34,714 bases of DNA from a virus. Location of the stretch: IMG/VR virus record IMGVR_UViG_3300025769_000405, positions 1 through 34,714 of that record, one strand, 5' to 3'. Below, in pieces: positions 5,399 to 34,714 of the stretch (within the stretch, counting starts at the first letter, position 1; the number at the start of each line of letters is the position of its first letter). The notes beneath the pieces are model-generated. The model was not told where the DNA came from, searched no databases, and saw only the letters and a program-made list of their open reading frames with translations. The translations under genes and the position numbers were made by a program.

Positions 5399-5617
5399 AT
5401 GAAATTATTTCCAGTTATTAACACTGATGCAGAGATCCCAGAGGAACTCTCAATACCCTTGTTTCGCGTTGAAGTTAGGATGTCTCTAATAGGGCGCCCA
5501 TTGATGACAACAGAGCAAGTTGTCGAAAAACTTGAGGAAGTATGCGACAAAGAAACTGCCGCTTTATTTAAGCCTGAATACTTTCTTATCGCTGAGAAGC
5601 CATTCGATTTTGAATAG
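5399..5617 (+). CDS. Moron-like small protein, the only rightward gene
   Basis: This 72-aa protein starts MKLFPVINTDAEIPEELSIP and ends EKPFDFE. It has no family I recognise. It looks soluble, with no membrane segment or Cys; a likely helix covers about residues 40-55 (TTEQVVEKLEEVCDKE). The ATG at 5399 has a good GGGAGG ribosome-binding site and a TATAAT box just upstream. Its 3' end overlaps the convergent 664-aa gene by 32 bp. A single gene on the opposite strand with its own promoter, inserted between two late modules, is the classic layout of a phage moron (accessory cargo gene). A role in host takeover or defence is possible but not shown by the sequence. Confidence 0.65.
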   Translation: MKLFPVINTDAEIPEELSIPLFRVEVRMSLIGRPLMTTEQVVEKLEEVCDKETAALFKPEYFLIAEKPFDFE

Positions 5618-7580
5618 CGCGGAGCATATCTTCAGTTAAAATTCCCGTGTAAGGCTTCATCTGCAAGGCTCTCTTATCTGTTGCTGATGGCATCAATGGG
5701 TTCTGTAGTGCTGTTGATGTCTTAGCATTAGCCGCCCTAAATCTAGCCAATTCTGGCAGTAACTCGTATACACCGATATTTTCTTGAAGCCTTCCAATTC
5801 CTTCTCCTGGCAGGCCTGCGCCATATGTTGGGTGGCCAGATATATCTAATATACCTCTTTGAGTATTCACACTGCCCACATTTTGTAGGCCGGCATCCAT
5901 AGCGTTTAGTTGTAGTTGATCGCTGACAGCAAGCCTAGCCTGAGATAGTGAAAGTCCTCCGCTGTCCCTACCTTTTGTGTCCAATATTTTTAGTATTGCC
6001 TTGCGCTGATTTCCGGTTAGCTCTTTCATCTGCTCCCCAGCAAGTGGATTATCTAAACCTAGGAACTCAGGAACCTTAATATTAATCTTGATGGTTTTGT
6101 CTTTTTCCGGGTTTTTGGGATCCTTCCGCTTAACTGATACGTTTACACCATCTTCTCTAATTATTTTGTTTAGGCGATTTATATCCTCTGCACCCATACT
6201 CTGATTTGCGTACTTGACCATTGTCTCTGCCGTCATCGTTGCGTAGTCTCCGCCACTAGGCGCCATACGCCAAGGTAAAAATAGTGGTGATTCACCAAGA
6301 TCTTTTGCGGCAGCCATCATCTGCTCTACTACCTTGGGGTCTGATGCCCAGACTTGGCCGCTGTTCATGAGGTCAAACATGTAGTCCTGGCCGCCTCTAA
6401 GGTTTACAGGATTACTAAAGTTCACCCCATTCAAACCCGTAAGTAGACCGCCTGCTGCTGTCCTATCTGACATTGTGGTCATAAACGGCCTACCTTCAAA
6501 GTCAAATATACTAACTGTAGGTATACCTAGATTTCTGGATTCTATAGTGGGGAAGATTCCAGGTGCCATTGCGGTCTGTTCTGCGCCGCTCATCCCCTTG
6601 CTAGGGCTGTATCTAGGTGAGTACCTTGGGTCTATGTTACTTAACGCATAAGGGCTTTCTTGTTTTTTGACCAATACACCGGCCTGACCTATTTTAACGC
6701 CTGGTATGTTCTCAACGGCATATTGTGGCCCTAGCAATCCCCCTATATATTCCCTTAATTCTGGCTGCTTAAAACCCTTCTGGTATGTGTTGTCGGTCGT
6801 TATAACAGACATCTCTTCTGGTCCAGGGGCGCCTTTAGCGCTCATAACGTCCCTGCCCCTTGTGGTAATTACAGCCGTTCCACCCGGCTCCAAAATTCTA
6901 CCTATATCCATAACAGCGGCGTCTCTAACATCTTTTGGCATGACGTTTAAGACGTTAAGAGATGTAATATTTTTATATGAGTTTGACGGGATGTCAGAGG
7001 ATCTATCGTAGGTGGGGTTAAATCCTTCTCTGGGGAACGGTTCAAAAGTATCCGCACCTATTTTCTCTGCACCTATACCCCTGCCCGCTCCATAATCCAA
7101 TGTTTTGCCTTCACCTAACACGTTACCTGCTTTTTCGTAACTTGGGACTGTTGAAGTGCCTAGCTGGGTCTTTTGTGAGTTGATTGCTGGAGGTATATCA
7201 ACACTTTGCGCAATTTTCTGTATGGTCCTAGGAGTCTTCAAGGCTGTCCCAATAGTGCCACCTATCAATGGCCCTGCCGCATAGGTTGCATCTCCTAGCA
7301 AACCCAGCCCCTGCATAGCCGCAGTGCCGTAGTTACCCTGGCGGAAGTTCTCTACCATTGAGGGGTTTCTGTTCGTGTAATCTAGCAGTGATTGCGATGA
7401 TGATGGCGCTGACGGCATCCCTCCCATGGCATCCAATGCCCCAGCACCTGGAGCGAATTGCGTTGCTAGATATGCAGCTTGAGTTGGCGTCACCTGCGGG
7501 CCGGTCCAAGCGCCCGTATTCGCCATTGCCTGGCGTACCATGTCTTGCTGATCAGGAGTCAATCTGTTTAATAGCGCCAT
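5586..7580 (-). CDS. Polyvalent virion-type protein with embedded SAM-methyltransferase-like domain
   Basis: This 664-aa protein has an N-terminal Ala/Gly/Pro-rich region (1-150) like that of phage ejection proteins. Residues about 155-305 look like a class I SAM-dependent methyltransferase: motif I LDYGAGRG at 161-168, an acidic end of beta-2 in DTFEPFP (177-183), NVLNVM at 209-214, and RILEPGGTAVITTRG at 228-242. Residues about 340-640 form a second globular region (SIFDFEGRPFMTTMSDRTA, then VPEFLGLDNPLAGEQMKELT) reminiscent of the large-polyvalent-protein associated domains. The start overlaps the previous stop (TAATG at 7580). The methyltransferase assignment is from motifs; packaging into the virion is inferred from composition and from lying downstream of the terminase genes. 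Confidence 0.7.
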   Translation of the reverse strand: MALLNRLTPDQQDMVRQAMANTGAWTGPQVTPTQAAYLATQFAPGAGALDAMGGMPSAPSSSQSLLDYTNRNPSMVENFRQGNYGTAAMQGLGLLGDATYAAGPLIGGTIGTALKTPRTIQKIAQSVDIPPAINSQKTQLGTSTVPSYEKAGNVLGEGKTLDYGAGRGIGAEKIGADTFEPFPREGFNPTYDRSSDIPSNSYKNITSLNVLNVMPKDVRDAAVMDIGRILEPGGTAVITTRGRDVMSAKGAPGPEEMSVITTDNTYQKGFKQPELREYIGGLLGPQYAVENIPGVKIGQAGVLVKKQESPYALSNIDPRYSPRYSPSKGMSGAEQTAMAPGIFPTIESRNLGIPTVSIFDFEGRPFMTTMSDRTAAGGLLTGLNGVNFSNPVNLRGGQDYMFDLMNSGQVWASDPKVVEQMMAAAKDLGESPLFLPWRMAPSGGDYATMTAETMVKYANQSMGAEDINRLNKIIREDGVNVSVKRKDPKNPEKDKTIKINIKVPEFLGLDNPLAGEQMKELTGNQRKAILKILDTKGRDSGGLSLSQARLAVSDQLQLNAMDAGLQNVGSVNTQRGILDISGHPTYGAGLPGEGIGRLQENIGVYELLPELARFRAANAKTSTALQNPLMPSATDKRALQMKPYTGILTEDMLRAIQNRMASQR

Positions 7581-8050
7581 TATTTTTTACTCTTGGTATA
7601 TTCTTCTGCGTATCTTGCCGCAGCGTCTAACAGGTCATTGTATGGCATCCTGTAGCCCTTCTCGCGGTCCTTTATGCCTGCCTCAACTCCCACCATGTTT
7701 TGAATATAGTCTAGTTCTTCCTCTTCAGGAATGCGCCCTCCGAAATCTCGGAACATGGAATCATACATTTGATATGCCAACGCCATATCCCTGGCGTCCT
7801 TCGGTGACACCTCTGGCCTTGCTGACCAATCATATGCCCCAGCATAGTTAATAGCTGAATCTAATAAGCCTCCACTAACTCTAGGCCCAGGGAACCTCTG
7901 TGCGAGGTCTTGAACGTATCTGTCCTGGTTAAATTGGTGCCTGAGATATGGGTCACTACCAAAATATTTTGGGAGCAGGGTGGCGCCTTTCGCTATTGAG
8001 CCAATTCTGTCGAATAGCGATCTATCTTGAAAGGGAATATATTCTGCCAT
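7580..8050 (-). CDS. Hypothetical protein next to the terminase
   Basis: This 156-aa protein begins MAEYIPFQDRSLFDRIGSIA and is rich in Asp, Arg, Tyr and Pro, with no membrane segment, signal peptide or motif I recognise. Its C-terminal third is helical and charged (DLLDAAARYAEEYTKSKK). It is co-transcribed between terminase and the 664-aa polyvalent protein, sharing the TAATG overlap with the latter, and may be a virion or ejection partner of it. That role is inferred only from position. Confidence 0.75.
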   Translation of the reverse strand: MAEYIPFQDRSLFDRIGSIAKGATLLPKYFGSDPYLRHQFNQDRYVQDLAQRFPGPRVSGGLLDSAINYAGAYDWSARPEVSPKDARDMALAYQMYDSMFRDFGGRIPEEEELDYIQNMVGVEAGIKDREKGYRMPYNDLLDAAARYAEEYTKSKK

Positions 8051-8074: not shown

Positions 8075-9427
8075 TTAAACTATGCCTTGAATGTTCCTGC
8101 GAATTGGACCGCCCCATACATGCCTGGGCTTGTATCCTACTGCAAGATATCTGAATGCGTCTGCAGCATGAGATGACCAATCGTGATGAGGTCTACCCCT
8201 CCATGCTTTACCGTTCTCATCCCAATCTCTGCGGTACTGGCGTAGGGCGTCTATCCCTCTCTCGCAGCGGTCTACATCAAACCAACACCTATCTAGCATT
8301 GTTCTTACCGCCTGGATCCCATCCTCTACCGGGAGCATAGGCGCTACCTCAACGCCGTTCAATCCTAGTGACTGTAACACCTCCATCCTAGACTTACCGG
8401 TTCCTAGCTCCTTAACCCTGACGTCATGCGGCAGGATGTGCTGCTCGTAGTTGTATCCCTTACTCTGCAAGATCTTGACGTAGTGGTCCAAGGCTAGTCC
8501 TGAGTTCTCATAGAAGTCTATGATGCGTATCTCCTGGCCTACATACTGGGCGAACCATATCGCTGTGGTATCTGCCATACCCAGGTCCCAGGCCGTGATT
8601 ACTGACGCCTGCCGGTCATACGGTACAACGGTAATCCTATCCTTGGCCTGCAGCATTTCATGGGCATAGTAGGCGCCTTCTGTGTGTATTAGGAAGTCTC
8701 CCTCCCATACATGCGTATATATCTCTGGGCGCTTCTTCTGGTCTTCCAGGCGCTCCAGTTCCAAAGGCGCAGGGAACCAGGGGTTGTCTTTAAAGTTACA
8801 TGAGACAATTTTACAGCTGTCTGGAGTGTTTAGCCTGAATCGTTTGTGGGTAGCCGACTCTTTGGATTCCGGGTTCCATGTCACCCAAATCTCAGATCCA
8901 TGCTCACGCACCGATGGTATTAGCTTCTGCCAAGCTGACTCAGAGACGCTCTCAGCTTCATCTACATAACACAGTAACAGCCTCGCTTTACTCTTGAGGG
9001 AGTCGAGGTTGCGGCGCAGGCCAGAAAACCCGTAGCTAATTTTACCATCCTTGGATCGGATGTATTTCTCCCCAACCTCGTAATAGTCGGCCAGAAACGG
9101 CACGCTTGAGATGGCGGCCTTGACCTCTTCCAGGGACGATTCATCAAGGGAGTTGAGATGTTCACGGGCGCAGAGAATTATACCTTCTCGCCCTTCCATG
9201 CCCCACTGGTAGCCCCTGACCGCTGTCATCATGGCAAAGGTTCTAGTCTTACCTGAACCCCTGCCGCCATAAGCACACCGATACCTGGCGTCTCCCTGGA
9301 ACACAGGGACCAGCTTAGTCGGTATCTGTAGCCGACTCTGGCGTGATTCCCTCAAGGATGATGTGGGTTGGTCTAAGTGAGTTGTCACTGGAGGTGACGT
9401 CTTGCTCGATCTTATCGCTGTATCCAT
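8075..9427 (-). CDS. terL: Terminase large subunit
   Basis: This is the ATP-driven DNA-packaging motor and nuclease. The N-terminal ATPase shows Walker A GGRGSGKT at 54-61, Walker B with catalytic Glu LLCYVDEAE at 151-159, and a WVTWNPES coupling motif at 181-188. The C-terminal RNase H-like nuclease shows ITAWDLGMADTTAIWF from about 277 (first Asp 281) and a final DWSSHAADAFRYLAVG with acidic residues. It resembles the PBSX-type Terminase_3 group. The ATG at 9427 gives 450 aa but overlaps the small subunit gene by 113 nt. A TTG at 9355 (residue 25) would give 426 aa and keep the whole ATPase. The nuclease metal-binding residues appear intact. Confidence 0.95.
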   Translation of the reverse strand: MDTAIRSSKTSPPVTTHLDQPTSSLRESRQSRLQIPTKLVPVFQGDARYRCAYGGRGSGKTRTFAMMTAVRGYQWGMEGREGIILCAREHLNSLDESSLEEVKAAISSVPFLADYYEVGEKYIRSKDGKISYGFSGLRRNLDSLKSKARLLLCYVDEAESVSESAWQKLIPSVREHGSEIWVTWNPESKESATHKRFRLNTPDSCKIVSCNFKDNPWFPAPLELERLEDQKKRPEIYTHVWEGDFLIHTEGAYYAHEMLQAKDRITVVPYDRQASVITAWDLGMADTTAIWFAQYVGQEIRIIDFYENSGLALDHYVKILQSKGYNYEQHILPHDVRVKELGTGKSRMEVLQSLGLNGVEVAPMLPVEDGIQAVRTMLDRCWFDVDRCERGIDALRQYRRDWDENGKAWRGRPHHDWSSHAADAFRYLAVGYKPRHVWGGPIRRNIQGIV

Positions 9428-10056: not shown

Positions 10057-10192
10057 TGTATTTCCCTTTTATTATATCTAGCACTGTATAATATGGTATA
10101 CCAGTCATCTTGTATATTTTAATAGGCATTCTACCGTCTTCGTAATACAAAGCCTTAACCTTACGCAGATTCTTTAGCGATACTTTCAACAC
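10031..10192 (-). CDS. Possible small helix-turn-helix protein
   Basis: An ORF of 53 aa (GTG at 10192) or 32 aa (ATG at 10129) ends at 10031. The sequence RKVKALYYEDGRMPIKIYKM followed by TGIPYYTVLDIIKGKY has the pattern of a recognition-helix-containing HTH (a Gly turn, then a Tyr/Thr/Val helix). It bridges the gap between the methyltransferase stop and the zinc-ribbon ORF, and overlaps both by about 25-30 nt. Ribosome-binding sites are weak for both possible starts, so the call is tentative. Confidence 0.35.
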   Translation of the reverse strand: MLKVSLKNLRKVKALYYEDGRMPIKIYKMTGIPYYTVLDIIKGKYNDKITKQN

Positions 10193-11411
10193 CTTGTATT
10201 CTCTCCCCTATCCACTTCATTACAGGCACTGCCATACTGTTTCCCATAGCCTTGTACCTTGGGCCATCAGGGCAGTTTTCTGCTGGCTTGCCCCGGTACG
10301 GTATCTTTGTGAAATCATCAGGGAACCCTTGGAGCCTTTCGCACTCCACTGGAGTTAGTCTGCGAACCTGCGTCCCTTGTCTACAAGCCTGATAACCTTG
10401 CCCCGGTTTACCCCCTGCTGTAGCCAGCGAGCTCGTCACATCAGCTTCCCATACAGCACCCTGCTGGTTTTCTTTGATTGCTACTCCATGAACATCCAGA
10501 CAATTAGTGGTAAAGCAAACTTCTTCATTCCAGCCCGATTCTTGCGAGTTTTGGCTGGTCTTGCCAGCTCCTTGAAGGGCGTATGCTACACAAGGTTCCC
10601 TCTGACCACCGCCCATAGTGTTCAGCGTAGGACATACATCTTTGGAAATTCTTGGCACTCCGTCAGGTGAGCGTGGTTCAAAACATAAAAGATTCCTGTT
10701 GTGGACTATTTGTGTACTAACAGTAGCGTGCGATTCCTTTGAAACATACCCATTGTAAGCATCAACAGCCATAGGAATCATGTCAGATGAGCCTGATTGA
10801 TACTCTCCTGTAGTGCCAACTCCAGTGTCTCCGGCAGCTTCTTCCCCCGCTTCTCGGCGCGGCGTAGGATGCCCTGACAGGCTGTGTCGCTCAAACAAAA
10901 CCGCTGCAGGTGGTCGCCAGTTTCCAAGATATCCGACAACAAACACGCGTCTCCTTCGCTGTGGAACTCCGAAGTATTGAGCGTCAAGAACTCGGTAGGC
11001 GAACCCATACCCGATTTCCCCCAGCCCTCCGAGAAAGGCTCCAAAGTCCCGTCCTCCGTTACTTGACAGGACGCCAGGGACGTTCTCCCAAACCACCCAT
11101 GTGGGGCGTGTGCGTTGAGCAAGTTTAAGGAATTCGAGTGCCAAGTTTCCACGGTCATCTGCCATTCCTTTTCTAAGTCCTGCGATTGAGAAAGACTGAC
11201 AGGGGGTTCCTCCGACAAGAAGGTCAATTGGCTCATAATCATTTTCTCCGATGGTTGTGAAGTCACCATGTAGCGGTACTTCTGGATAGTGATGTTTTAA
11301 AACTGCACAGGGAAATGGCTCAATCTCCGAAAAGAATGATGGTTCCCAGGCCATGTGATGCCACGCCATTGTGGCGGCTTCTACACCACTACAAACTGAT
11401 CCATACCTCAT
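10161..11411 (-). CDS. DNA cytosine-5 methyltransferase
   Basis: This 416-aa protein is a C5-cytosine DNA methyltransferase. Motif I is SVCSGVEAATMAW (5-17), the catalytic Cys is in GGTPCQSFS (Cys71), motif VI is VVWENVPGV (107-114), and motif VIII is QRRRRVFVVG (151-160). The variable target-recognition region follows, and then RLTPVECERLQGFPDDF and the closing MGNSMAVPVMKWIGERI. All catalytic residues are present. No restriction partner is encoded nearby, so it is an orphan enzyme, probably protecting phage DNA from host restriction. The ATG has a strong GGGAGG site 4 nt upstream. An unusually long second open frame runs inside it (10778-11269). Confidence 0.95.
   Translation of the reverse strand: MRYGSVCSGVEAATMAWHHMAWEPSFFSEIEPFPCAVLKHHYPEVPLHGDFTTIGENDYEPIDLLVGGTPCQSFSIAGLRKGMADDRGNLALEFLKLAQRTRPTWVVWENVPGVLSSNGGRDFGAFLGGLGEIGYGFAYRVLDAQYFGVPQRRRRVFVVGYLGNWRPPAAVLFERHSLSGHPTPRREAGEEAAGDTGVGTTGEYQSGSSDMIPMAVDAYNGYVSKESHATVSTQIVHNRNLLCFEPRSPDGVPRISKDVCPTLNTMGGGQREPCVAYALQGAGKTSQNSQESGWNEEVCFTTNCLDVHGVAIKENQQGAVWEADVTSSLATAGGKPGQGYQACRQGTQVRRLTPVECERLQGFPDDFTKIPYRGKPAENCPDGPRYKAMGNSMAVPVMKWIGERIQGVESIAKESA
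10778..11269 (-). other. Long alternative frame inside the C5 methyltransferase gene
   Basis: On the same strand but in another frame, 163 codons are open over methyltransferase residues of about 48-211. The translation is not low-complexity: it includes LSDILETGDHLQRF and ACQGILRRAEKRGKKLPE, which look like ordinary protein. I recall similar translations listed as hypothetical proteins for other phage C5 methyltransferase genes, but such conservation may simply reflect the conserved overlapping gene. No good ribosome-binding site is visible for its first ATG, while an internal ATG at about 11233 is also possible. Translation is unproven. Confidence 0.25.
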
Positions 11412-34162: not shown

Positions 34163-34714
34163 CTATGCGCCTATGGTTATCCAGCCAGTTGTATTGTCTG
34201 CTTGGTAAGCCTCTTCATCCCAAGACGCTTCACCTTCTGGTTTAGGCAGTGGGGCGTTCCAGACAAAGTTAGTGCTGTCGTATGTCCAAGAGGCGTATGG
34301 TGACTCGTCAGGGCTTTCAGGCAGTGCGTTATCTGGGAAGCCAGCCTGTGCAGGTACATCGCGTAGAGCTGCACGGTAGTTCTCGTAGACAGTCTTGTCA
34401 TCAGTTGACAGTGGGCTATCAGGAAGAACCGCCCAATCTGTTCTAGACAGCTTGTCATTACGCTGGATTCGTACATTAGCTTTCTTGTTAGCCAGTTCTG
34501 ATGCAATCTTCTCTGCCGACTTAGCTACCATCGTGTAAGTCTGATAAGCAACGCCATCGCGTACTTCTATGACACCTTCAATAACCTTTTCGGTAGCTGT
34601 GTCATAGGTTGGCTTGGTGTCGTCTGTCAGTCTGACCAAGTTGAGAGAGGCCAGTGTCGCGTCACTGAAGGGTAACGCAAATGAAGTGTTAGGATTGGCT
34701 TTGACTATCTGCCT
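34163..34714 (-). CDS. Tail-fibre assembly chaperone-like protein, copy B, 5'-truncated by the window
   Basis: The frame is open to the right edge of the window and encodes at least 183 residues. It begins (R)QIVKANPNTSFALPFSD and is almost the same as copy A from its residue 15 onward, including the TDWAVLPDSPLS and YRAALRDVPAQAGFP motifs of the Phage_tail_APC family. The clearest difference is MVAKSAEKIASE in place of VIDRPAEAIANE. About 15 N-terminal residues are missing. It precedes the coiled-coil membrane protein by 2 nt. Two tandem chaperone copies are common after fibre genes, which is why the two window ends may be neighbours. Confidence 0.82.
   Translation of the reverse strand, partial: RQIVKANPNTSFALPFSDATLASLNLVRLTDDTKPTYDTATEKVIEGVIEVRDGVAYQTYTMVAKSAEKIASELANKKANVRIQRNDKLSRTDWAVLPDSPLSTDDKTVYENYRAALRDVPAQAGFPDNALPESPDESPYASWTYDSTNFVWNAPLPKPEGEASWDEEAYQADNTTGWITIGA
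34163..34714. repeat. Right copy of the chaperone-gene direct repeat
   Basis: Same orientation as the left copy, with near-identical DNA through most of the gene. The copy is cut by the window edge within the region matching 558-520 of the left copy. No flanking mobile-element signature is seen. Confidence 0.85.

Follow-up and report, generated by a model that had tools for sequence, protein, structure and literature searches.

A little-noticed methyltransferase family of phages, exchanged as a cassette and probably delivered from the particle along with the phage DNA

What would a methyltransferase (MTase) domain do in a large protein encoded among the particle-assembly genes of a phage? Enzymes that are injected with phage DNA act ahead of any phage gene expression and, to our knowledge, few of them have known activities. 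We analyzed a stretch of 34,714 nucleotides (IMG/VR virus record IMGVR_UViG_3300025769_000405, positions 1 to 34,714; "the window"), in which an initial annotation, made from the letters alone, had placed an MTase-like domain inside a virion-type polyvalent protein. The open reading frame (ORF) list and the translation bear out a minus-strand gene for the 664-aa protein P0001; read on the plus strand, the frame is riddled with stops. The gene and its neighbors are:

10161..11411, minus strand: separate DNA methyltransferase, C5 type by sequence (phrog_116 DNA methyltransferase, E 6.6e-93)
8075..9427, minus strand: terminase large subunit (Pfam Terminase_3, 2.7e-22; phrog_3717, 1.5e-60)
7580..8050, minus strand: 156-aa protein directly upstream of the P0001 gene (ORF)
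5586..7580, minus strand: polyvalent-type protein gene P0001, 664 aa (ORF and translation; 100% identical copy in viral contig L001)
4687..5307, minus strand: SU10-type head-tail adaptor (Pfam SU10_adaptor, 1.8e-34; phrog_2941, 1.1e-47)

The P0001 gene lies downstream of the terminase large subunit gene and the 156-aa ORF, for which Pfam returned zero matches, and upstream of the adaptor gene; the multi-domain protein is thus encoded among particle-assembly genes, and the genome does carry a separate C5 MTase, as had been proposed. The P0001 region had zero megablast matches in phage records, and the protein had no significant phmmer match among PDB sequences and zero PADLOC matches. Tail-fibre-assembly-like genes lie at both window ends (12-605 and 34163-34714); they are paralogs with 91% identity across 552 bp, and the second one is cut off by the contig end. 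Within the P0001 gene, we distinguish the following parts:

7197..7580, minus strand: variable N-terminal region, residues 1-128 (low-confidence model; swapped in L002)
6648..7196, minus strand: predicted class I SAM-MTase domain, residues 129-311 (AlphaFold2, fold matches; absent from L002-L005)
7077..7100, minus strand: SAM-binding motif I LDYGAGRG, residues 161-168 (conservation among 80 viral members)
6942..6956, minus strand: NVLNV motif, residues 209-213 (found in 80/80 members)
6771..6788, minus strand: TYQKGF motif, residues 265-270 (Dnd-associated MTases have the form TFQKY)
6685, minus strand: downstream junction of the cassette swap relative to L002 (blastn and junction view)
5589..6542, minus strand: conserved C-terminal domain, residues 347-664 (115 viral-contig relatives)

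Given 31 aligned sequences (P0001 and 30 viral relatives, alignment A2), AlphaFold2 modeled residues 122-318 with a pLDDT of 92.7 and a pTM of 0.87. Foldseek matched this model to 630 PDB chains at E ≤0.001, with class I MTases as the best matches (E 6.9e-9), and VIA-align superposed it on solved MTases with Z up to 15.4 and an rmsd of 2.7-2.9 over 169-177 residues. The top structural neighbors are METTL6 (tRNA), toxoflavin N-methyltransferase, and further small-molecule MTases; the protein N-terminal MTase 7d8d was also among the Foldseek neighbors. Fold searches with the full-length P0001 model listed MTases only and are uninformative on other folds. Structure prediction thus yields the Rossmann-type MTase fold that had been anticipated; only the bounds of the domain move, from residues 155-305 to a slightly wider ~129-311. 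The second large globular domain is likewise present in the full-length model, at about residues 341-664 with pLDDT mostly 75-92. Of the supposed Ala/Gly-rich flanks, a mild enrichment at the N terminus is what stands (A+G 27% in residues 1-125 versus 18-19% elsewhere); residues 1-143 are mostly low-confidence, with pLDDT largely <50 in residues 1-128.

Motif I is present as annotated, and its D.G.G.G pattern occurs in 80/80 viral members, with D162, G164, G166, G168, and E180 each at least 97% conserved. E180 is the acidic residue after strand 2, which accompanies the glycine-rich motif I in class I MTases. The NVLNV motif is also invariant among the 80; the presence of QKGF in all 80 follows from the search pattern itself and is not counted as evidence. 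The median dN/dS of the family was 0.088 over 393 non-independent pairs, which points to purifying selection. On the strength of the model, residues ~129-311 of P0001 are a genuine class I SAM-MTase domain and, because the SAM motifs are conserved and dN/dS is low, the enzyme is probably active. P0001 taken alone scored 17.1 bits (E 0.0047) against Pfam Methyltransf_23, under the gathering cut-off of 27, and 18.7 bits (E 5.8e-4, model positions 25-151) against NCBIfam TIGR04096, short of the cut-off of 150; phrog_2774 matched at E 8.9e-5.

The MTase is an exchangeable cassette that is swapped between near-identical phages. Downstream of position 6685, contig L002 is 97.6% identical to the window over 2892 bp by blastn; it is also homologous upstream of the gene (79.8% over ~2.3 kb), and the ~60 bases immediately ahead of the start codon are near-identical. 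Between these stretches, from the start codon to residue ~299, ~362 unrelated bases replace ~890 bases of the window. L002 probably lost an MTase cassette that was formerly present, because it keeps the last MTase strand, AGVLVKKQ, as a scar. Proteins of 496-500 aa without the MTase are found in L003 and L004 (61-62% identical to P0001) and in L005 (46-48%).

With the C-terminal domain as query, 115 relatives turned up in viral contigs, 80 of which were kept; 70 of these have a complete N terminus. The MTase is present in only 3 of the 70 (the window-identical L113, plus L176 and L180, which have the same length), so it is non-essential to the core role of the protein. Other C-domain proteins have ART-PolyVal in their N-terminal part (L172, E 1.2e-10; L163 and L179, weaker). 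The C-terminal domain itself had no Pfam match, its profile matched nothing among PDB sequences, and its BFVD matches were unnamed Caudovirales proteins at 32-38% identity. Our guess is that this domain probably anchors the protein in the particle or contributes a shared ejection function. It is widespread in viral contigs and may have a shared role in packaging or ejection.

How far does the MTase domain extend beyond this protein? By tblastn, 12 phage records from 10 phages contain it with 32-58% identity, the hosts being Roseobacter, Rhodobacteraceae, Pelagibacter, Microcystis, and Mycobacterium; diverged viral proteins share 53-66% identity in its core. A profile scan of IMG/VR contigs gave 218 confirmed places, versus 2 matches in 84,980 prokaryote genomes, a contrast that is approximate since the peptide patterns differed between the scans; of the 2 prokaryote matches, L096 adjoins phage genes. 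Judged by sequence, the family is almost purely viral. Cultured phages that have the domain include Roseobacter CRP-738 and CRP-3, Microcystis MJing1, and Mycobacterium Bigswole and Myrna.

Proteins bearing the MTase are 207 to 1415 aa long, and the place of the domain within them differs; it is shared by structural-region proteins that are otherwise unrelated. It is fused to Phage_lysozyme in HTVC103P, to a cell-wall hydrolase in L079, and to ART-PolyVal in L022, and DUF7178 is its partner in CRP-738, L035, L076, L079, and L089; stand-alone ORFs of ~230 aa are found in MJing1 (231 aa), L070, and L071. Lysozyme, cell-wall hydrolase, and ADP-ribosyltransferase are hallmark domains of ejected proteins. 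Structural or packaging genes are adjacent at 65 of the 82 MTase loci (the m_portal and LS_* labels are the analyst's or depositor's), and in the CRP-3-like group the MTase gene lies between the portal and coat genes.

Some of these partners merit separate mention. DUF7178 recurs behind the MTase in HMO-2011-type phages (L006, 11485-13992, and the L035, L076, L079, and L089 contigs) and has the invariant motifs ALSP, KVRNF..NI, and a VTVDTH-like one. The last hinted at an HhH-GPD DNA glycosylase, for which a PDB profile search gave no support, leaving a lead only. The MTase gene is not discussed in the searched passages of papers on HMO-2011-type phages. In L031 (1696-5691), the MTase is found in a viral protein of 1331 aa together with weak matches to DprA_WH (5.4e-4) and RelA_SpoT (0.0024); by sequence, the latter is a possible alarmone-synthesis partner.

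In mycobacteriophages, the 1321-aa protein of Bigswole (L013, 3444-7409) joins the MTase to a prohead-protease-like N terminus, which was called by homology to Myrna gp97 (phrog_18299, E 9.1e-18); a Gordonia relative of this protein is annotated as a capsid maturation protease. Among close Bigswole relatives, the flanks of the MTase slot match and its content differs, and HyRo has a Phage_L5_gp82 domain (E 3.9e-23) where Bigswole has the MTase. There are 194 records that cover the Bigswole protein to at least 80%, yet only 6 Mycobacterium records have the MTase. These sequence comparisons mark mycobacteriophages as a second, independent case of same-slot exchange. More broadly, cluster C mycobacteriophages have a prohead-protease-like or scaffold-region protein with an exchangeable internal slot, filled by the MTase in some and by a Phage_L5_gp82-type domain in others (L013, L097-L101, L009, L014). 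Bixzunavirus proteins show FEA.VL-like repeats at module borders; Myrna, ScoobyDoobyDoo, and Stormageddon lack these repeats, so we claim no general packaging tag. Myrna gp97 and its mycobacteriophage relatives (phrog_2774) resemble P0001 in having the same MTase domain (41% identical) in a structural-region protein, but the host protein is another one, with a prohead-protease-like N terminus, and its gene precedes those for the minor and major capsid proteins. A published study of the Myrna capsid, in which mass spectrometry was run on Rosebush, does not mention gp97.

What the enzyme methylates is harder to read from its motifs. Of the 80 viral members, none has the [DNS]PP[YFW] motif; by our inference, NVLNV sits where DNA amino-MTases carry it. 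By hhalign, the domain has no detectable similarity to the C5 MTase of the same genome (probability 0.2%). Compared with the core of TIGR04096, a Dnd-associated putative MTase, hhalign gave a probability of 98.5% (E 3.3e-15), against 91% for UbiG and TehB, controls that were single sequences and make the contrast indicative only. The catalytic core of TIGR04096 is the nearest sequence relative found and, on this profile evidence, a homologous core. DYG.G.G, NLG.V.NV (NLNVLNV in the phage domain), and T[FY]QK..xQxEL..YI are common to both; the phage domain, however, is ~180 aa long, covers only about positions 16-153 of 478, and falls far below the 150-bit cut-off, and we therefore do not file it as a TIGR04096 member. 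The literature searched gives no known activity for TIGR04096. In Pseudoalteromonas (L107, 4001-8867), the TIGR04096 MTase is beside dndB, dndC, and dndD. On Synechocystis pSYSM (L103, 3986-6058), there are no dndBCD-named genes within ~4 kb on either side of it; a cysteine desulfurase family gene lies ~2 kb downstream.

We lean toward the reading, which we consider somewhat better than an even bet, that P0001 is a polyvalent virion protein built in modules, in which a constant C-terminal domain carries an exchangeable N-terminal cargo, here the MTase, and that it is delivered as an early effector. Gene position and partner domains argue well for virion cargo. Disparate domains are seen across the family (ART, lysozyme, cell-wall hydrolase, DUF7178); P0001 itself has the MTase and one unnamed domain. 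In the mechanism we propose, the C-terminal domain would anchor P0001 in the particle or serve ejection, with the N-terminal MTase riding as cargo; the protein would be built into the particle and enter the cell with the DNA, where the MTase may methylate a molecule shared by widely differing bacteria and thereby act early in anti-defense or host takeover.

The initial annotation had suggested modification of phage DNA or host targets by the injected protein. An injected DNA MTase that shields incoming phage DNA from restriction has a precedent in P1 DarB, a head-packaged anti-restriction protein with an N-terminal packaging signal (PMC9024508; excerpts of PMC5512222), and draws on the profile kinship to the Dnd-associated core, found beside dndBCD in Pseudoalteromonas, which is the sole and indirect pointer to DNA. 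Nonetheless, DNA modification is not supported as stated: [DNS]PP[YFW] and similarity to the C5 MTase are missing, the nearest solved folds are small-molecule, tRNA, and protein MTases, P0001 has no SF2 helicase, and ~180 aa include no recognizable target-recognition domain. DNA modification is possible, yet it is not what the motifs of the MTase favor, and we regard the shielding hypothesis as possible but unlikely. The target could instead be a host protein, in a role akin to that of the T4 Alt-type ADP-ribosyltransferases; ART-PolyVal fills the cargo slot in the same layout or co-occurs with the MTase (L022), in the mycobacteriophage slot a Phage_L5_gp82 domain can take the place of the MTase, and 7d8d is among the structural neighbors. 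On the other hand, the core identities between diverged viral proteins and across alphaproteobacterial, cyanobacterial, and mycobacterial phages are, we infer, higher than a host-specific protein target would lead one to expect, which leaves a host-protein effector rather doubtful.

The domain might also never be delivered, acting late inside the infected cell or only structurally. The stand-alone versions, which need not be packaged, would fit such a role; fusions to domains typical of entry or ejected proteins, the retained active-site motifs, and the location within a protease/scaffold protein in Myrna relatives all speak against it, and we hold it to be improbable. That the domain is a catalytically dead remnant or an annotation artefact, as the sub-threshold single-sequence Pfam and NCBIfam scores might hint, is very hard to square with the high-confidence fold, the invariant SAM-site residues, and the low dN/dS, and we give it hardly any weight. 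As a guess at the substrate within these readings, we would put DNA or another nucleic acid in front, though short of even odds, a host protein behind it, a small molecule as less likely again, and none last. A far more speculative proposal, to which we grant a small chance, is that these are previously undescribed, essentially virus-only, particle-borne MTase effectors, cartridge-swapped among ejected proteins from unrelated phages, which share with TIGR04096 a core and a substrate class and counter phosphorothioate-type or other modification defenses at entry.

Under the favored reading of P0001 as a virion protein with MTase cargo, the family is a little-noticed one that is probably packed in particles and delivered along with the phage DNA. 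It is frequent in viral contigs, near-absent in prokaryote genomes, conserved across hosts, and exchanged as a module. Since cultured phages have the domain, its packaging and activity are directly testable, and the answer may hint at the function of the Dnd-associated putative MTase as well.

Among known systems, polyvalent proteins are the closest in architecture, in that unrelated enzyme domains are combined in one late or structural-gene protein, with ART-PolyVal and lysozyme among the partners (excerpts of PMC5512222). The same excerpts describe polyvalent-protein MTases as mostly EcoKI/TaqI-like N6-adenine enzymes with NPP(Y/F), accompanied by LPD36 and an SF2 helicase, and P1 DarB as the archetype of polyvalent MTase-helicase proteins; the passages searched in this paper (Iyer et al. 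2017) do not mention the MTase domain studied here. DarB is packaged in the head and inhibits the EcoK and EcoB endonucleases (PMC9024508; excerpts of PMC5512222), and its N-terminal 30 residues suffice to package a reporter (PMC9024508). P0001 resembles DarB in placing an MTase within a large virion-type protein, and DarB is believed to enter the cell (PMC9024508; excerpts of PMC5512222). It differs in scale and equipment: DarB is a ~250-kDa protein with a DNA adenine MTase and a helicase, whereas the P0001 core is ~180 aa, lacks motif IV, is presumed from context to be packaged, and has no SF2 helicase match in Pfam at E up to 1. By sequence, the P0001 MTase is therefore another, smaller class I type than the EcoKI/TaqI-like and DarB MTases of polyvalent proteins described before in these excerpts.
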